Shown: in pieces, positions 24,817-54,990 of the stretch
Position numbering within the stretch: position 1 is the stretch's first letter
Layout of the letters: every line of letters starts with the position of its first letter
The notes under the pieces: model-generated
Seen by the model: only the letters and a program-made list of their open reading frames with translations
Database searches by the model: none
Told to the model about the DNA's origin: nothing
Position numbers and translations under genes: made by a program
Source of the DNA: Microbacterium aurum
Lineage (GTDB): Bacteria; Actinomycetota; Actinomycetes; Actinomycetales; Microbacteriaceae
Length of the DNA: 64,000 nucleotides
Direction of reading: 5' to 3'
Assembly: GCF_016907815.1 (NCBI RefSeq)
Contig: NZ_JAFBCQ010000001.1
Span: 992,001 to 1,056,000, forward strand

Positions 24817-26511
24817 ATGGGGTCGAAGGTGAATTTGTTCGCAGCGATCCGGAGGGACGCACGAGTCGAGGGTCTGAGCCGTCGGGCTCTTGCCCGGAAG
24901 TACCGGGTGCATCGGCGCACGATCGCGCAGGCACTGGAATCACCGGTGCCTCCGGAACGGAAGCCGAGAACGCAGACGGCACCGAAGCTCGATCTGGTCC
25001 GCGCTCACATCGACGCGATGTTGCGGCAGGACCTCGACGCGCCACGGAAGCAGCACCAGACGGCGACGCGGATCTGGAACCGCCTGATCGACGAGCACGA
25101 AGCGGAGGTGTCCTACGCGGTCGTCCGAGACTACGTGCGCCGGCGCCGTCCGGAGATCGAGACCGAGGCGGGCAAGCGGGTCGTGTCGGCGTTCGTGCAG
25201 CAACAGCACGCACCGGGCATGGAAGCCGAGGTCGATTTCGGTGAGGTCTGGGTGGTGCTTGCCGGGGTAAAGACGAAGTGCCACCTGTTCGTGTTCCGGC
25301 TCTCCGCGTCCGGGAAGGCCGTGCACCGGGTCTATCCGACGCAGGCGCAGGAAGCGTTCCTCGAGGGGCACATCGCCGCGTTTGAGACGATCCAAGGTGT
25401 CCCGGCACTGCACATCAAGTACGACAACCTCACCCCGGCCGTCGTCCGGGTGATTCACGGGACGCGGGATCGGGTGGAGAACGACCGGTGGGTGCTGTTC
25501 CGCTCCCACTACGGTTTCGATGCGTTCTACTGCGAGCCCGGGATCGACGGCGCGCACGAGAAGGGCGGTGTCGAGGGTGAGGTCGGCCGGTTCCGCCGCA
25601 CCTGGCTGTCACCGATGCCGGTCGTTGACAGTCTTGACCAACTCAACGCGATGATCGCCGAGTGGGACGCCCGCGACGATGCGAGGCGCATCACCGGCCG
25701 CCGGTCGAGTGTCGGGGAGGACTTCACGCTCGAGCAGCCGCTGCTGCAGTCGTTGCCGGCGGAACGGTTCGATCCCGGCCTGGTGCTGCATCCCCGGGTT
25801 GACCGGTCCGCGCTGGTCACGGTCTGGCAAGCGAAATACTCCGTCCCCGCCCGGCTGATCGGCCGGCAGGTTCGTGTCTCGTTGCGCGCATCGGAGCTGG
25901 TCGTGTTTGACGGCCGCCAGCAGGTCGCCCGGCATCCCCGGGTCGTTGAACGGTTCGGGGAGTCGATCGTCTTGGACCATTACCTCGAGGTGCTGCAGCA
26001 CAAACCCGGCGCGTTGCCTGGGTCGACCGCGCTGGCGGCCGCCCGCACATCGGGCACGTTCACTGCCACGCATGAAGCGTTCTGGCAGGAGTCGAGGAAA
26101 GTCAACGGTGAAAGCCGCGGCACCCGGGAACTGATCGACGTGCTCCTGCTGCACCGCAGCATGCGCGCCGCAGATGTAATCGCGGGAATCCGGGCCGCGC
26201 TGACGGTCGGCGCGGTCACTGCCGATGTCGTCGCGGTCGAAGCGCGCCTGCACGCCTCCGGGACGGTCCTCGCGGGTGGGTCCAGCTCGGACCGTCATCT
26301 CGCTCGACAGAACGACGACGACGGCAAGCGGGTTGTCAGTCTCACCCAGCGCCGGCTCACCGACCCGGCCGCGGTCATCGCGGGCCTGCCTGCGGACGCA
26401 CGTCCACTGCCTTCCGTCGCGGCTTACGACGAACTACTGCAGCGGCGCACCAAGACCACCCCACCCAGCGGCGTCGACGTCGCTGGGTCATTGGAAGGAA
26501 GCACCGCATGA
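24817..26511 (+). CDS. istA: IS21-family transposase IstA
   Basis: This 564-residue protein has an N-terminal helix-turn-helix LSRRALARKYRVHRRTIAQAL, then the DDE integrase core: Asp in GMEAEVDFGEVWV, second Asp in LHIKYDNLTPAVV, Glu in GAHEKGGVEGEVGRFRR. A C-terminal beta-rich domain (YSVPARLIGRQVRVSLRASELVVFDG) follows. Full length for the family with no lesion. It overlaps the istB start by four bases (ATGA). It needs IstB for efficient transposition, and IstB is broken here. Confidence 0.95.
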   Translation: MGSKVNLFAAIRRDARVEGLSRRALARKYRVHRRTIAQALESPVPPERKPRTQTAPKLDLVRAHIDAMLRQDLDAPRKQHQTATRIWNRLIDEHEAEVSYAVVRDYVRRRRPEIETEAGKRVVSAFVQQQHAPGMEAEVDFGEVWVVLAGVKTKCHLFVFRLSASGKAVHRVYPTQAQEAFLEGHIAAFETIQGVPALHIKYDNLTPAVVRVIHGTRDRVENDRWVLFRSHYGFDAFYCEPGIDGAHEKGGVEGEVGRFRRTWLSPMPVVDSLDQLNAMIAEWDARDDARRITGRRSSVGEDFTLEQPLLQSLPAERFDPGLVLHPRVDRSALVTVWQAKYSVPARLIGRQVRVSLRASELVVFDGRQQVARHPRVVERFGESIVLDHYLEVLQHKPGALPGSTALAAARTSGTFTATHEAFWQESRKVNGESRGTRELIDVLLLHRSMRAADVIAGIRAALTVGAVTADVVAVEARLHASGTVLAGGSSSDRHLARQNDDDGKRVVSLTQRRLTDPAAVIAGLPADARPLPSVAAYDELLQRRTKTTPPSGVDVAGSLEGSTA

Positions 26512-27313
26512 GTCCCAGCGCCACCTCCATCACCACCACCTTGCGTCGGCAACGCGGGATGACCGAGGAAGCTGCGTAAGCCGCCGTTGACCAAGCCTGC
26601 CGCCGGCTGCGCCTGCCCACGGTCCGCGCGGTTATGGATGAAGCCGTCGATGCGGCGAACCGGGGGCAGAGGTCCTACCAAGGCTTCCTCGCCGAACTCC
26701 TCCTCGCCGAGTGCGATGACCGGGACCGTCGCTCAACGATCCGTCGAGTCAATGGCGCCGGGTTCCCTCGCCAGAAGTGGCTCGGGAACTTCGACTTCGA
26801 CGCCAACCCCAACGTCTCCGCAGCGACGATCCACACCCTTGCACAAGGCGACTGGATCCGCCGCGGCGACCCCTCTGCCTCATCGGGGACTCCGGCACCG
26901 GGAAGAGCCATCTGCTGATCGGGCTCGGCACCGCCGCAGCGGAGCAGGGCTACCGGGTGAAGTTCACCCTCGCGACGAAGCTCGTCAACGAACTCGTCGA
27001 AGCCGCCGACGATAAACAACTCGCGCGCACCATCGCCCGCTACGGCCGCGTCGACCTGCTCCTCATCGACGAGCTCGGCTACATGGAACTCGACCGCCGC
27101 GGCGCCGAACTGCTCTTCCAAGTCCTCACCGAGCGGGAAGAGAAAGCCTCCGTCGCGATCGCGTCGAACGAGTCCTTCAGCGGTTGGACGAAGACCTTCA
27201 CCGACCCACGTCTCTGCGCCGCGATCGTCGACCGGCTCACGTTCAACGGCACCATCCTCGAAACCGGCACCACCAGCTACCCACTCGGACACACCCGCAC
27301 CAGCCATCTCTGA
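26508..27313 (+). pseudogene. istB: IstB ATPase with a premature stop and a frameshift
   Basis: The frame starts at ATG 26508 (MSPSATSITTTLRRQRGMTEE). An in-frame TAA lies at 26577-26579, where the family has a sense codon before AAVDQACRRL. A missing C near 26871 shifts the frame just before the Walker A region LCLIGDSGTGKSHLLIGLG. The rest keeps Walker B LLLIDELGYMELD and the sensor region IASNESFSGWTKTF, and ends near the normal C-terminus (ILETGTTSYPLGHTRT). Two independent lesions make a functional ATPase unlikely. Confidence 0.9.
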
Positions 27314-27335
27314 CGAACACGGCTCGACTCGTCGT

Positions 27336-28385
27336 TCACAGCACTCGATAGAGCATTCCCATGGCTGCACGCACCTCACCCAGCGTTGTTTCGGCCATCT
27401 CGTTGGCGCGATTGTTTCCGGCGAGGAGCACTTCCGTGACGAACGCCGGGTCGGCTGCGAACTCGTTCCGCCGTTGGCGGTGGTCGGCGAAGCGGGTGTT
27501 CACCGCGTCGATCGTGTAGTCCTTCAGCGCCCCGCTTCCGGCTGCACCAATGTGTCCCGCGACCTCCTCTGGCTGGACGCCAGCGCACAGAGCCGCCGTC
27601 GTGAGCAGCGCGGACACTCCAGGACGTGTGACCGGATCAAACGTGATCACCCGATCGCTGTCGGTTGGCGACTTCCTGATCACCGCTGCAGTCTCGTCCG
27701 CAGTCATGGACAGCGCTATCGCGTTCCCATAGCTCTTCGACATCTTCCGACCATCAAGGCCCGGTACTTCCGGTGTCGCGGTGATCAGCGGCTCCGGCTC
27801 AGGAAACACCGGCCCGAACCGTTCGTTGAACCGTCGCGCGATCGTCCGGGTCAGTTCCACATGTGGCAGGTTGTCTTTCCCGACCGGCACTAGGTTGCCC
27901 TTGCAGAAGAGAATGTCCGCAGCTTGATGCACGGGATAGGTCAGCATCAGGCCGCTCAGACTCCGACCCGACGCCGCAAGCTCTGCCTTCACAGTCGGAT
28001 TGCGGTGCAGTTCCGCCTCCGTCACGAGACTCAAGAACGGCAACAGGAGCTGATTCAACGCGGGCACCGACGAGTGCGTGAAGATCGTCGTCGACGCAGG
28101 GTCCATGCCAGCAGCGAGGTAGTCCAAGATTGCGTCCCGCACGTTCACCGCCACGTTGTCGGCGGTGTCGCGGTCCGTGATCACCTGGTAGTCCGCCAAT
28201 ACCAGCACGGTTTCAACACCGAGGCCCTGCAAGCGGACACGCTCGCGCACAGTCCCGAAGTAGTGCCCCAAGTGCAGCCGGCCCGTCGGCCGTTCCCCGG
28301 TCAGAACACGGAACCGGCCCGGTTCAGCAGCGACCCGAGCTTCCAACTCCGGCATCCGGAGCGTCGTCGTCGCAAAAGAATCCAT
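27336..28385 (-). CDS. trpS: Tryptophanyl-tRNA synthetase, leader-controlled
   Basis: This class I synthetase of about 349 residues has the HIGH-type motif in GERPTGRLHLGHYFGT (about residues 30-45) and the KMSKS motif in DGRKMSKSYGN. LADYQVITDRD and LTYPVHQAADILFCKGNLVPVGKDN form the Trp/tRNA pocket. The start is placed at ATG 28385 (MDSFATTT), six bases after GGAGG; the ATG at 28388 sits too close to it. A leader peptide with three consecutive Trp codons and competing hairpins precede it, so charging of tRNA-Trp probably controls translation. Streptomyces carry an auxiliary, indolmycin-resistant TrpRS under ribosome-mediated attenuation, a useful parallel. Whether this is the only trpS of the genome cannot be seen here. 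Confidence 0.95.
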   Translation of the reverse strand: MDSFATTTLRMPELEARVAAEPGRFRVLTGERPTGRLHLGHYFGTVRERVRLQGLGVETVLVLADYQVITDRDTADNVAVNVRDAILDYLAAGMDPASTTIFTHSSVPALNQLLLPFLSLVTEAELHRNPTVKAELAASGRSLSGLMLTYPVHQAADILFCKGNLVPVGKDNLPHVELTRTIARRFNERFGPVFPEPEPLITATPEVPGLDGRKMSKSYGNAIALSMTADETAAVIRKSPTDSDRVITFDPVTRPGVSALLTTAALCAGVQPEEVAGHIGAAGSGALKDYTIDAVNTRFADHRQRRNEFAADPAFVTEVLLAGNNRANEMAETTLGEVRAAMGMLYRVL

Positions 28386-28476
28386 CATCACCCTCCACAT
28401 TGAGGGTTGCGCGACAGTCACCACGTCACAGATTCGCGGGCTGCCATGCAACCCACGAGACACACGTCAAAGGCTG
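28386..28476 (-). promoter_or_regulatory. Translational attenuator of trpS
   Basis: On the minus strand the blocks, in order, are: GGCTGCC (28487-28481, overlapping the last Trp codon), GCAGCC (28477-28472), GGGTTGC (28454-28448) then GGCAGCC (28445-28439), GCAACCCTC (28410-28402) and GAGGGT (28395-28390, containing the Shine-Dalgarno). GGGTTGC can pair with GCAACCC. ACCCTC can instead pair with GAGGGT and hide the ribosome binding site; these two pairings share bases and exclude each other. GGCTGCC can pair with GGCAGCC or with the nearby GCAGCC. A ribosome stalled on the Trp codons would mask GGCTGCC and favour the first pairing, exposing the trpS start. Complementarity is seen; the mechanism is inferred. 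Confidence 0.75.
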
Positions 28477-28515
28477 CTAGGGCAGCCACCACCACGAAGA
28501 ACGAAGCGAACGCAT
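28477..28515 (-). CDS. Trp-rich leader peptide MRSLRSSWWWLP
   Basis: The ATG at 28515 opens a 12-codon frame with three TGG codons in a row (28494-28486), ending in TAG at 28477-28479. It is 89 bases upstream of the trpS start. A possible -10 element (TAGTGT) lies so close to the ATG that the transcript may be leaderless. Three tandem Trp codons in a 12-residue peptide directly upstream of trpS are the hallmark of a ribosome-based Trp sensor. Confidence 0.85.
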   Translation of the reverse strand: MRSLRSSWWWLP

Positions 28516-28607
28516 ATCCCGACACTACCGGTTCACTCGCCGCAGGCTGTAGCTTGGTGACCTCGCCGTAGGGGCGAGCGCACGACTGGCGCCTGTAGGA
28601 GGCACCG

Positions 28608-29858: not shown

Positions 29859-30176
29859 ATGGCACAGGAGATCGCAACATCCGAGGCCGCCCGCCGGCTC
29901 ACCTACTTGCACGGTGTCGCGCTCGACGCCGCGACGGCTGCGCCCGAAGACCTCGACGTGATCGAGGTTCCGGCCGGCTCGTGGGCGGTGTTCCGCACCA
30001 GCGGACCCTATCCAGCGGCGTTGCAGGAAACATACGCGGCATCAGCCTCCGAGTGGTTCCCCTCGAACCCGTGGAGACTCCGCCCCGGCCCCTCGATCGT
30101 CGCCGTCCTTGATCGCGCCGAGGATTTCAGCACCGCGACCACCGAGCTCTGGATGCCGATCGAGCGCGCTTTGTAA
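29859..30176 (+). CDS. GyrI-like effector-binding domain protein (short)
   Basis: This 105-residue protein matches the C-terminal half of the AraC/Rob-type small-molecule binding domain: LDVIEVPAGSWAVFRTSGPYPAALQETY, W-F-P-S-N-P-W, then SIVAVLDRAEDFSTATTELWMPIE, ending in the typical E-h-W-h-P-h strand. The domain is normally about 150 residues, so the N-terminal strands are missing or replaced. The gene may be a truncated copy with a new start. A TATAAATAT element lies about 25 bases upstream. The next gene starts three bases after its stop. Confidence 0.65.
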   Translation: MAQEIATSEAARRLTYLHGVALDAATAAPEDLDVIEVPAGSWAVFRTSGPYPAALQETYAASASEWFPSNPWRLRPGPSIVAVLDRAEDFSTATTELWMPIERAL

Positions 30177-30178
30177 TC

Positions 30179-30643
30179 ATGTCCAATGCAATGCTCACTG
30201 CTCCTTGCGAGTGCGGCGCTGACAGCGATTGCCACCCCGTCTGGTACGAGGCCCTCGCCGAAGAGCGTCTCGACGCGCTCATGGGTCAGTGGCACAACCC
30301 GCTGGTGTGCGTTTTCGTTCTCCAGCACCCTTCTATGTTCAAACTGGAGTTCGCCGACGGCCAAGTGCAGTTCCTTCAACTGCTTGTCGAGAAAGGAATC
30401 GGCGCCGTCAACGCCGTCGCCCGCCACCAACGCGCACGCAACAAGGGCACACGGCCAACACTCGATATGTCAGAACTCGCTGCCTATCCGGGCGTCAGCG
30501 ATGCTGATCTGCCGCTGCCCTTCGCATTGAGCCTGCACCACCTACGCTCCGACGACGGTGGCTTTCTCAGTGATGGCTATGACGCATACGATCGCCGGAT
30601 GGTAGAGATCGCGATGGCCACCATCGACGCCTGGTGCAAATGA
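30179..30643 (+). CDS. DUF5946-like hypothetical protein
   Basis: This 154-residue protein opens with a Cys-rich block (CECGADSDCHPVWYEALAEE) and then VCVFVLQHPSMFKLEFADGQVQFLQLLVEKG. This resembles actinobacterial DUF5946 proteins, which have an N-terminal C-x-C-G-A motif and a Y-A-x-Q-H-P block. The C-terminus ends in the helix RMVEIAMATIDAWCK. It starts two bases after the upstream stop, so the two are co-translated. The biochemical role is unknown. Confidence 0.6.
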   Translation: MSNAMLTAPCECGADSDCHPVWYEALAEERLDALMGQWHNPLVCVFVLQHPSMFKLEFADGQVQFLQLLVEKGIGAVNAVARHQRARNKGTRPTLDMSELAAYPGVSDADLPLPFALSLHHLRSDDGGFLSDGYDAYDRRMVEIAMATIDAWCK

Positions 30644-30862: not shown

Positions 30863-30985
30863 ATGAGAGGTTCGATCATGTTCCGACTGCTGTGGGCTCT
30901 GAGTTCCCGCATCCACTACTTCCTGCGGTCGTTTATGCCGACCAGCATCCTGATCGGCACGATGGTTGCCCGTAGAGGTCGAGCT
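30863..30985 (+). pseudogene. N-terminal fragment of a small conjugative-element membrane protein
   Basis: From ATG 30863 (or 30878) the frame reads MFRLLWALSSRIHYFLRSFM and continues PTSILIGTMVARRG. From memory this is the start of a short membrane protein often mislabelled sulfate permease in actinobacterial plasmids and integrative elements. The hydrophobic helices expected after residue 45 are missing, because the frame runs into the truncated methyltransferase. It is a remnant of a conjugative element. Confidence 0.45.
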
Positions 30986-31500
30986 GACTCGTCTCCCAGA
31001 CCCCACGGGTCGGGTTCCAGATTGCGAACGGCTGCTGCGCGGAGGGTTACGGTTGCGGGGTTGCGTCGTTCATCGTCGTCTCCTTCCGGGATGGAGTGGG
31101 TTGCGGTTGCGGAGAGCAGTCCTCGCACGTTCTCGATGACGACCCATTGAGGTTGCAGTGCGTCGATTGCTATCGCCATGTGCGCCCAGAGACCGGAGCG
31201 TATGACTGGGGCGAGGCCCGCCATCTTCCCGACCGTGGATACGTCCTGGCAGGGAAAGCCGACGCAGAGAATGTCCACCGGCTCAACGCTGCTCCAGTCG
31301 ATTGTGGTGATGTCTCCGAGGTTCGGGGTGTCGGGCCAGTGGTGGGCGAAGACGCGGGCGACGGGCTCGTTGATCTCGGAGAACCAGACAGTGCGGGCGT
31401 CGAAGACCTCCTCGACGGCGAGGTCGAGCCCGCCGTAGCCGGAGAACAGCGACCCGACCCGTAGGCGACGGTCGGTGCGCGCATCGTCGGTTTCTGACAT
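30916..31500 (-). pseudogene. C5 DNA cytosine methyltransferase, C-terminally truncated
   Basis: From ATG 31500 (GGAG upstream) the protein has motif I VGSLFSGYGGLDLAVEE, motif IV with the catalytic Cys in CVGFPCQDVSTVG, and motif VI WVVIENVRGLL. After ARPLRA (about 30968) the native sequence stops and about 12 foreign residues lead to a stop. Target recognition domain and motifs VIII-X are missing, so no active enzyme is expected. No restriction gene is adjacent. It belongs with the neighbouring conjugative-element fragments. Confidence 0.8.
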
Positions 31501-31762
31501 GAGGACTCCGCCTGATCGGTGATCCCGGTCGTCGTCCGCTCGTGAACCTGACGCCGGGCTGGTCACCTGTCAGGTGCTCGCGCCGGCTCCCATGCCCGTC
31601 GCAGCTCGCACCCGCGTCAGCCGTCCATCACGTCGTCGTCTCGACCCGTCCTCAGAGTCACCACGCCTCTTGCAGATCGAGGGGGTGTCAACTTTCGTTG
31701 ACACCCGATGACAGAAGTCACAAGCTTTTGACGACAGCTACCACAGGGAGTACCTGTCCGGC

Positions 31763-32633
31763 ATGACAGTTTCGATGCGCGTGATGTCGGCGGGCGACGG
31801 CTACAAGTACCTGCTCCGCACGGTCGCCGCAGCAGACGGGGACAGGTCGCTCTCGACCCCGCTGACGAGGTACTACAACGCCGAGGGGACACCTCCGGGC
31901 CGGTGGCTCGGCGCTGGCGTGGCCGCGCTCGGAGGCGGGCAGATCATCGAGGGTGATCAGGTCTCCGAAGCCCAGCTCCAGCTCCTCGTCGGCATGGGCC
32001 GCGACCCCATCACCGGCAAGCCTTTGGGCCGCGCCTATCCCGAGTACCAGGCCGTTGCGGAACGGATCGTTGAACGGGTCGCGGCCCTCGATCCCGCCCT
32101 GGGGCCGGTCTCCCGTGCCGAAGCCGTCGCAGCTATCGAGGCCGAGGAGGGCGAGCGTGGCAGGCGGCGAGCGGTTGCCGGATACGACTTCACCTTCTCT
32201 ATCCCCAAGTCCGCCTCGGTGCTGTGGGCTGTCGCCGACGCCGGCACGCAGGCTCTCATCGCGCAGGCGCATCACGCGGCGGTTGCGGAGGTGGTTGCGT
32301 TCATGGAGCGGGAGGTTGCAGCGACCCTCACGGGTGCAACCTCCCGCAACGGTGCGGTTGCACAGGTCGATGTGACCGGGCTGATCGCTACCGCGTTCGA
32401 CCACTACGACTCACGCTCGGGCGACCCGCACCTGCACACGCACGTCGTCATCTCGAACAGGGTGCAGACCGTCCTCGACGGCAAGTGGCGCTCCCTCGAC
32501 GGACGGCCGATGCACGCCGCGACCGTGGCCCTGTCGGAGCTGCACGAGGCGGTGTTCGCCGATCATCTGACCCGGATGTTCGGCGTGGAGTGGGAGGCCC
32601 GAGAGAAGGGCAGGGATCGAAACCCCGTAGTGC
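31763..32633 (+). pseudogene. MobF (TrwC/TraA-type) relaxase, N-terminal fragment
   Basis: About 290 residues of the relaxase domain are present from ATG 31763. Possible catalytic Tyr residues are in LTRYYNAEG; DFTFSIPKSASVLWAV is the conserved strand pair. The metal-binding His triad sits in the region HYDSRSGDPHLHTHVVISNR, the diagnostic MobF motif. Native sequence ends after WEAREKGRDRNP at about 32633, where it joins a VirB4-like gene in inverted orientation. The frame runs on to 32767 with meaningless residues. The helicase part expected after residue 300 is missing; a C-terminal piece of such a relaxase lies at 53403-54151. Confidence 0.88.
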
Positions 32634-33690
32634 CTCGCGAGCCGCCAGTGCGCGTCCATTCTGCGCAGGAGCGCCGGGTGGGACATGAGTCGCCATGCCT
32701 CGTCGTAGACGACCCATCTGCGGCCCCCGTTGGGGTCGAGCAGGGCGGCTTCCATCCATGCGGATGAGCAGGTCATCAGCACCGAAATCGGCGTGCTGTT
32801 TCTCGGTGACGCGCGACAGATCGAGACTGACCATCGGCAGCGACGGGTCGAACCTGACGGTGCTCGGCCCGTCGAACAGGCCCGCCAGGTCCCCGGCGAC
32901 GAGGCGGCGCAGCGCGTGGCCGACCTGGCGGCCGTCCTCGGTGAGTCGGCCGTCCGGGTCGTCGGCGTGGTCGGGGCGCAGCAGCCGGTCGACCACCATC
33001 GGCAGGATCGGCACGTCCGCGTCGCGCACCGCGCCGGCCAGGGCGGTGTCGATCGCGGTGTGCTCCAACGGCGCCAACCGCCGATCTAGCACCGTCTCCG
33101 TCAAGGCTCCGAGCAGAGCGCGGCGTCGCGCGGCGAGGGTGGTGGCCCACTCCTGGTCGGACAGGCCGCCGGGCCGGTAGCCCTCATCCAATGGGTTGAG
33201 CCTGTTGCCCATCCCGTGCCCGAGGATGATCGCTTTTCCGCCGACTGCTTCCGCGACGCCGGAGTGCTCGCCTTTGGGGTCGCCGGGAACGTAGACGCGG
33301 TACCCGAAGGGCAGACCGCGGGTGTAGAGGCTCTTGGCGAGCGACGATTTCCCGGAGCCGACGATCCCGGCCAGGATCAGGTTCGGCGCGGTGATGATGC
33401 CCCTGCGGTACAACTCCCACGGGTCGTACACGAACGATGAGCCGCTGTAGAGGTCTTGGCCGATGAAGATTCCCGCGGCTCCGAGCCCGGCTTCGGCCAG
33501 GAACGGGTACTGCCCAGCGAGCACGGCGCTGGTGTCCTGATGCCGGGGCACTCGGAAGCGGCCCGGTGTCCTCAGCGCCGCCGGGCCGGGCTCGCCGGCG
33601 GCGGACAGGTAGACCGTGGCGCGGCGCTCGGCCCGTTCGGCGGCGGCCTTGGCCTGGGCCGCTTCCTTCTCGACGTGACGCTGCTCGGCG
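32630..33690 (-). pseudogene. VirB4/TraC-like conjugation ATPase fragment
   Basis: The minus strand encodes HVEKEAAQAKAAAERAERRA, then LAGQYPFLAEAGLG, the Walker A region LILAGIVGSGKSSLAKSLYT, and RVYVPGDPKGEHSGVAEAVGG. Near 32790 a frameshift separates VSLDLSRVTE from VLMTCSSAWMEAALLD, and the Walker B-like block RRWVVYDEAWRLMS follows. The fragment is cut at both sides: against the relaxase at about 32630 and against an ECF sigma gene at about 33690. Type IV secretion ATPases of this group are encoded in actinobacterial conjugative elements. Confidence 0.8.
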
Positions 33691-54469: not shown

Positions 54470-54679
54470 CCGGCGCCCGTAGACGCCGTAGTTCTCCGCA
54501 TGCAGCCGCACGACCTCCGGGACGAGGAGATCGTCCTTCAGTTGCCTGGCCGACGGCGCACGGCCGACAGCGGCGCGGTTGCCGCGTGCGGTGAGGAAGC
54601 CCTGGACCGCCGGTCGGAGGACCCGGCAGATGAGCTCGACCCCGAAACGATCCCGGTGCTCGTTGATGAACCGGATCAT
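54470..54679 (-). pseudogene. IS3 OrfB, N-terminal fragment
   Basis: MIRFINEHRDRFGVELICRV then LRPAVQGFLTARGNRAA and LHAENYGVYGRRKMHG are the first 70 residues of the second reading frame of an IS3 element, including the HTH_21-type region. The DDE catalytic domain is absent; after MHG the frame continues with unrelated residues to 54380. It normally would be made by frameshifting from OrfA. Confidence 0.8.
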
Positions 54680-54684
54680 CTCGG

Positions 54685-54990
54685 TCAGGGGCGGTCGAGC
54701 TCCTTCGCGAAAAACACGCTCGCAGCCTTGAGGATCTCGTTGGCCTTGCGCAGCTCGGCGTTCTCCTTCCGCAGCCGCTTGATCTCCGCCGCCGCATCGG
54801 TGGTCAGCCCAGGCTTCACGCCCGCGTCGACCTCGTATCGGCGCTGCCAGAGTCGCAGCGTCTCGGGGCTCATCCCGAGCAGCCCGGCGACATGCCGCAC
54901 GGCGCTCATCATCGTCGGGTGCGACGGTCGCGTCTCCGCGAGCATCCGCAACGCCCGCTCACGCATCTCCGGCGAATACTTCCTGTTCAT
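54685..54990 (-). CDS. IS3-family transposase OrfA
   Basis: This 101-residue protein has the HTH_Tnp_1 fold: YSPEMRERALRMLAETRPSH, VAGLLGMSPETLRLWQRRYE, then a leucine-zipper-like helix AEIKRLRKENAELRKANEILKAASVFFAKELDRP. Complete, but useless for transposition without OrfB. Confidence 0.88.
   Translation of the reverse strand: MNRKYSPEMRERALRMLAETRPSHPTMMSAVRHVAGLLGMSPETLRLWQRRYEVDAGVKPGLTTDAAAEIKRLRKENAELRKANEILKAASVFFAKELDRP

Follow-up and report, generated by a model that had tools for sequence, protein, structure and literature searches.

A probable Trp-codon attenuator upstream of a second tryptophanyl-tRNA synthetase gene of Microbacterium aurum, with related leaders across Actinomycetota

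Introduction

Vecchione and Sello reportedly described in 2010 (J Bacteriol 192:3565) the ribosome-mediated transcriptional attenuation of an auxiliary, antibiotic-resistant tryptophanyl-tRNA synthetase (TrpRS) gene, which we take to be that of Streptomyces coelicolor. In the translational attenuators of erm and cat genes, a ribosome stalled on the leader redirects the pairing of the RNA and the Shine-Dalgarno (SD) sequence is exposed. A classical attenuator has been predicted at trpS2 of S. avermitilis, and the Trp leader peptides of trp operons were described with UGG repeats and complementary triples, in the sections of that article devoted to these genes (Seliverstov 2005, PMC1262725). For S. 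lividans, the relevant part of another article reports the leader trpL2, MMTRTCTQLWRAA, before trpS, which is leaderless and has two hairpins, with no uridine-rich stretch downstream (PMC8079986). In the literature collection searched, this was the only report on point for leaderless Trp leaders with SD control or for Microbacterium trpS leaders, and nothing on point was found for trpS as a passenger of IS21 elements.

Here we analyze a trpS gene and its upstream region in a stretch of 64,000 nucleotides of the Microbacterium aurum genome, hereafter the window. The locus is of the same kind as the Streptomyces auxiliary TrpRS attenuators, and its apparent output is different. As in the S. coelicolor system, a second TrpRS, plausibly of the antibiotic-resistant type, appears to be under ribosome-mediated attenuation, and Streptomyces relatives of the window gene have leaders with adjacent Trp codons (WW leaders). 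Unlike that system, which is reportedly transcriptional, the window has no U-run and has instead a hairpin covering the SD together with a rival helix, B:C. The erm and cat attenuators differ in that their signal is a drug on the ribosome and not uncharged tRNA, and they have fewer segments. The S. lividans trpL2 shares with the window a Trp leader before trpS (in the window a probably leaderless one), two hairpins and the absence of a U-run, but it has one Trp codon and, in the part of the article that deals with it, no SD-covering model (PMC8079986). The attenuators in the sections cited above from PMC1262725 are of the terminator type, in contrast to the window, translational control being proposed there for ileS T-boxes.

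Results

The leader and its helices in the window

An earlier sequence-only reading had described, on the minus strand upstream of trpS, a 12-codon frame with three consecutive Trp codons (28515-28477) and the blocks GGGTTGC (28454-28448), GCAACCC (28410-28404), ACCCTC (28407-28402), GAGGGT (28395-28390) and GGCAGCC (28445-28439); when the minus strand was read, the frame and every block were found at these positions. The leader peptide gene, MRSLRSSWWWLP (28477..28515, minus strand, as all features of the element), runs from the ATG at 28515-28513 through TGG TGG TGG at 28494-28486 to the TAG at 28479-28477, and relatives have WW or WWW leaders. A candidate -10 box, TAGTGT (28522..28527), stands 6 nt 5' of the leader ATG, as would suit a leaderless start. 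Segment A (GGCTGC, 28482..28487) overlaps the third Trp codon, and segment A' (GCAGCC, 28472..28477), which begins at the last base of the leader stop, can pair with A or with B. Segment B (TCGTGGGTTGC, 28448..28458) is the 5' arm of the B:B' hairpin, with the loop ATG at 28447-28445, and B' (28434..28444) is its 3' arm, corresponding to the terminator arm in those relatives that have a U-run. Segment C (GCGCAACCCTC, 28402..28412) offers GCAACCC to B and ACCCTC to the SD region, and segment D (28390..28396) holds the SD, GGAGG at 28396-28392, overlapping GAGGGT. In the spacer between A' and B (28471-28459 in the window), many leaders have a GCATG-like stretch.

The RNA from 28520 to 28380 has a folding energy of -60.9 kcal/mol; 200 dinucleotide shuffles average -49.7, and one of them folds equally well (z -2.96). 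Its minimum-energy fold has three hairpins, GGCUGC/GCAGCC across the last Trp codon and the stop, CGUGGGUUGC/GCAGCCCGCG, and ACCCUC/GAGGGU across the SD, and no U-run follows the hairpins in the window. The most stable partner of the block over the Trp codons is GCAGCC at the stop (28477-28472), and the partner named in the sequence-only reading, GGCAGCC, serves chiefly as 3' arm in the B hairpin. No Rfam family covers the element at the gathering score in a covariance-model search, and neither Trp_leader nor T-box matched; the single Rfam match in the window is an ALIL pseudoknot at 54602-54718 on the minus strand (52.2 bits). ALIL pseudoknots are usually frameshift signals of IS3-family transposases. 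We take the element to be more than chance because Trp-codon leaders recur 5' of related genes.

The trpS gene and the second TrpRS copy

The gene downstream (27336..28388, minus strand) encodes a TrpRS, matching TIGR00233 with 233.9 bits against a cut-off of 176.75. Two in-frame ATGs follow the SD, at 28388 and 28385, and the second has the usual SD spacing and gives the MDSF start seen in close relatives. Among proteins of solved structure, its best relatives are 1yi8 and 2a4m; the entry 2a4m bears the name tryptophanyl-tRNA synthetase II, and both are presumably Deinococcus proteins. The genome, a single contig of 3.41 Mb, has a second TrpRS with 33% identity (G000:C1:3126443), in line with an accessory enzyme, and the 500 nt upstream of that copy yielded no WW leader. 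By motif, the residue matching Bacillus His43 is Gln in the window TrpRS (DYQVIT) and His in the other copy (DLHALT). Among the 71 leader-bearing loci described below, Gln was found at this position in 57 by motif (45 DYQVIT, 12 DYQVLT) and in L102 by eye, while the fetched stretches of the remaining 13 end before the motif. A change of His43 to Asn gave indolmycin resistance, according to the part of PMC4899734 that treats this residue. It is plausible, therefore, that the window TrpRS is of the resistance type, in keeping with the earlier suggestion of an inhibitor-resistant enzyme, and the window trpS is a second, probably antibiotic-resistant copy of the gene for the tryptophan-loading enzyme.

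Leaders in related genomes and the link with two TrpRS

Including that of the window, 71 Trp-codon leaders were collected 5' of related trpS genes in Actinomycetota, examples being MNFNRSAWWWLR, MRFAVSSWWWLHKQP, MIPQSWWWLPPQP and MHLSSCLSWWRSS; two of them (L105 and L109) have no adjacent Trp codons. The Bifidobacterium, Collinsella and Treponema relatives examined showed no WW leader. A scan for promoter-spaced frames with at least one Trp recovered 70 of the 71 and yielded eight further leaders outside this set (L150, L151, L161, L162, L176, L199, L169 and L197), mostly with one Trp or WRW. When 5-8 nt and upstream in-frame starts were allowed, a TANNNT box stood 5' of the leader start in 70 of the 71, at 6 nt in 55 and at 7 nt in 15, and a looser test (4-9 nt, starts unmoved) gave 55/71 leaders against 6/906 control positions. 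Because of this spacing, the leader mRNA is probably leaderless.

The presence of the leader follows the number of TrpRS genes: 64 of the 66 genomes that have two TrpRS carry it before trpS, as against 3 of the 45 that have a single one, by TIGR00233 counts uncorrected for kinship. The test covered the 112 genomes whose upstream regions were examined, a part of those available, since one listing alone had 164 matching genomes of 396. Among the 66 two-TrpRS genomes, 58 have a leader from the set of 71, and six of the other eight were supplied by the one-Trp scan (L150, L151, L161, L162, L176 and L199); in G311 and G761, neither the set nor the scan gave a leader. The single-TrpRS genomes were 46, of which one (L172, with only 123 nt upstream) was left out. 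As for the three hits among these, L124 looks like chance, and L169 (VLTSWQSS, genome G362) and L197 (MTTAPANATSWWRRWVRH, genome G918) look real, with a promoter-spaced Trp leader despite the single TrpRS; thus the leader is not strictly confined to spare copies. The contrast is repeated within families f1, f14, f18 and f12. For the first 80 of the 112 genomes the counts were 51/52 against 0/28, and with the other 32 the link became weaker yet stayed clear. In G560, which has two TrpRS of the window kind, the leader stands before one copy (L111), and before the other (L159) nothing was seen beyond a WW frame that overlaps the start of the gene.

Pairings kept among the leaders

The leaders have the core of a classical attenuator, in which A lies over the Trp codons, A' at the stop, and B:B' forms a hairpin, with A:A', A':B and B:B' mutually exclusive. 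Pairing statistics were taken from 26 close leaders (alignment A1). The 6-bp helix A:A' is present in 26/26, with 100% of cells paired and one pair with a double change; B:B' has 99.1% of cells paired; and A':B has 100% in 26/26, where A' and B hardly vary. The 11-bp helix between C and B plus its loop (B:C) has 97.5% of cells paired, against 29-51% in slid controls, and all 11 pairs vary, three with changes on both sides. In the window one such double change turns C-G into U-A (UUGC/GCAA, where the others have CUGC/GCAG). When the 3' letters were shuffled, B:C stood above 500/500 shuffles in cells paired and in covariation score, whereas shuffles were as good in 17/500 for pairs with double change and in 76/500 for pair types, which are weaker controls. 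For the window duplex itself, the fraction of 200 shuffles as good was 0.005, or 0.045 with other segment limits.

In the whole collection, 49 of 71 leaders pair B plus loop with their own downstream region at the level of the best 5% of shuffles, including all nine of f38, with an 11-bp helix. This pairing was not significant in the other 22, among them all six of f9, where the picker chose other hairpins; an earlier test with other segment limits had passed in 33/50, and in 2/6 for f9. In f9 loci, inspection by eye had suggested long B:C pairings, which the automatic test did not bear out. A leader's own C beat the mean of other groups' C in 46/50 and was in the top 5% in only 11/50, probably because C is similar across groups. 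The A':B test, with a fixed A' window of 18 nt, passed in 40/71. As a fixed-column helix, C:D had 71.1% of cells paired; its register slides, and the structure holding it was no better than shuffles, and C:D was judged by SD accessibility in place of fixed columns. A helix B':E, considered as a helper of the hand-over, was seen by eye in several leaders and was dropped, since only 3/71 beat shuffles. By eye, L174, L179, L180 and L025 have a B-like sequence (GGGCCGTCC) repeated in the downstream segment, which would pair with B' and not with B, a different wiring.

The earlier proposal of a Trp-codon attenuator before an accessory TrpRS gene is thus strengthened by the conservation of the leader and its Trp codons, by the compensatory changes through which the rival pairings are kept, and by the link with two-TrpRS genomes.

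U-run or SD cover

In the Streptomyces-like members B:B' ends in TTTT or longer. A U-run after B:B' was scored in 14 of 71 leaders, of which L103 is a weak case; L025, L029 and L196, with three T, were scored as having none. Median SD accessibility was 0.20 without a U-run (n=57) and 0.50 with it (n=14), p 1e-4, uncorrected for kinship. Among the 23 leaders of the window's group, 20 have an SD of lower accessibility than the mean shuffle, although individually p <= 0.10 in only six, and for the window p is 0.21.

Since the window has no U-run and C can pair either with B plus loop or with the SD and start region, a translational or dual output is likely, judging from the sequence. The sequence-only reading had assigned the switch to translation rather than to a terminator. 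The missing U-run and the SD-covering hairpin with its rival partner speak for this; nevertheless, termination without a U-run may occur, because B:B' is the counterpart of the U-run terminator of relatives.

Folding models

At equilibrium, the combination of B:B' and C:D prevails in nearly all leaders irrespective of the ribosome footprint, and B:B' is more stable than B:C, with a median difference of 6-7 kcal/mol; the switch would therefore have to be kinetic. With B:C forced and the ribosome on the first TGG, the SD is freer than with B:B' in 23/26 leaders and the start codon in 22/26. In the window, forced B:C leaves SD access at 0.20 with the ribosome on TGG; under the two remaining masks it drops to 0.08 and 0.06, though the start codon opens. 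When the ribosome footprint is masked, equilibrium SD access hardly switches.

A co-transcriptional heuristic was also run, in which the RNA is extended base by base and refolds only over barriers of up to 6 (or 9) kcal/mol. At 6 kcal/mol, a ribosome at the stop gave B:B' in 24/26 leaders, and a stall at the first TGG gave A':B and B:C in 10 leaders each and B:B' in 6; with 9 kcal/mol allowed, B:B' formed in 25/26 at the stop, and A':B, B:C and B:B' in 8, 9 and 9 on stalling. In both runs the window went to B:C when stalled and to B:B' at the stop, and only this model ties the rival pairings to ribosome position. The predicted opening of the SD barely changes (0.38 vs 0.25 at 6 kcal/mol, 0.23 vs 0.25 at 9), while that of the start codon rises (0.67 vs 0.56 and 0.67 vs 0.49, respectively). 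As SD opening barely changes, the direction of control and the level on which it acts are, like the response to Trp, what we infer.

The IS21 setting

On the plus strand, tail to tail with trpS and its leader (24817-28527), lie an istA gene for an IS21-family transposase (24817..26511, an open frame) and an istB-like helper gene (26565..27298), which has an IstB_IS21 Pfam match and whose istB matches are divided between two frames. An identical block of 3911 bp, holding leader, trpS, istB and istA, is found between different flanks on two plasmids of Microbacterium sp. No. 7; the leader lies 98 bp inside the block, and so gene and switch probably moved together there. The block suggests that trpS is within an IS21-transposed unit in that strain, and it gives substance to the mobile setting that had been noticed in the window. 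No target duplication is visible at the 3911-bp block, and an inverted-repeat search did not find the ends of the window IS21 element. Matches to istB and istA also adjoin trpS at L097. On plasmid B of Microbacterium sp. No. 7, the full trpS unit has upstream of it a second, partial copy of its left end, 926 bp long (L083:665-1590).

Near trpS, the window also has a TrwC-type relaxase frame of only 334 aa (31763-32767) and a DNA cytosine methylase match (30916-31566), possibly a decayed conjugative element around the gene. At 29859-30643, a protein with a GyrI-like/Cass2 binding domain is followed by a DUF5946 protein, perhaps as a small operon.

Discussion

We consider it fairly probable that an auxiliary TrpRS gene is here controlled by an attenuator based on ribosome stalling, which turns the gene on when Trp-tRNA is short and whose output is probably translational, possibly with termination as well. 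The mRNA would begin at the leader ATG or immediately beside it. When Trp-tRNA is ample, the ribosome would reach the leader stop and cover A', so that B:B' would form, C would lie on the SD and start region, and TrpRS would be off. When Trp-tRNA is short, or the main TrpRS is inhibited, the ribosome would stall on the UGG codons and cover A, and A':B would then form and delay B:B'. C, made later, could take over B via the loop nucleotides that B:B' would have buried, and once B:C had formed the trpS start would be opened. The output would probably be translational, with termination at B:B' as a possible addition. More tentative, and in our judgment rather doubtful, is the fuller version in which control is dual-level and kinetically gated, B being parked on A' and handed to C, so that a transcription attenuator would have been rebuilt as a translation switch, and resistance gene and switch would travel as one cassette on an IS21 element.

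The classical order A-A'-B-B' and the U-run terminator that B:B' forms in Streptomyces-like relatives could also be read as purely transcriptional attenuation, in which B:B' terminates without a U-run, with help from Rho/NusG, and the hairpin over the SD arises incidentally from nearby pyrimidines. A TG step some 10-12 nt past a hairpin is a feature of RNA polymerase pause sites, and by eye many leaders have such a pause-like step at about that distance after A:A'; moreover, the window SD has no equilibrium control. However, this would leave B:C without a role, yet B:C is kept through base changes, and the SD tends to be buried in leaders without a U-run; we regard a purely transcriptional switch as unlikely.

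It is very improbable that the sense of control is reversed, such that stalling would favor A':B, leave C free for D and turn trpS off at low Trp-tRNA. Although the equilibrium model has the SD about equally closed with A':B and with B:B', shutting off a spare synthetase in this situation would make little sense, relatives with a U-run have the opposite logic, and the Streptomyces TrpRS gene was reportedly found to be induced (Kitabatake, 2002). That there is no regulation, with a short frame and GC-rich hairpins brought together by chance, is hardly credible: high-GC upstream regions do fold readily, and WW frames without promoter spacing occur before a few single-copy genes (L141 and L155), but such an account has to face 71 leaders, promoter spacing in 70 of them, the kept pairings and the link with two gene copies.

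The ribosome-stalling attenuator that we favor extends a single studied Streptomyces case to many families of Actinomycetota, and its leader is strongly associated with the possession of a spare TrpRS. The terminator-type and SD-covering attenuators form a natural series that can be compared gene by gene. Finally, a leader travelling with its gene beside an IS would account for the arrival of a spare synthetase that is coupled from the outset to the level of Trp-tRNA in the cell.
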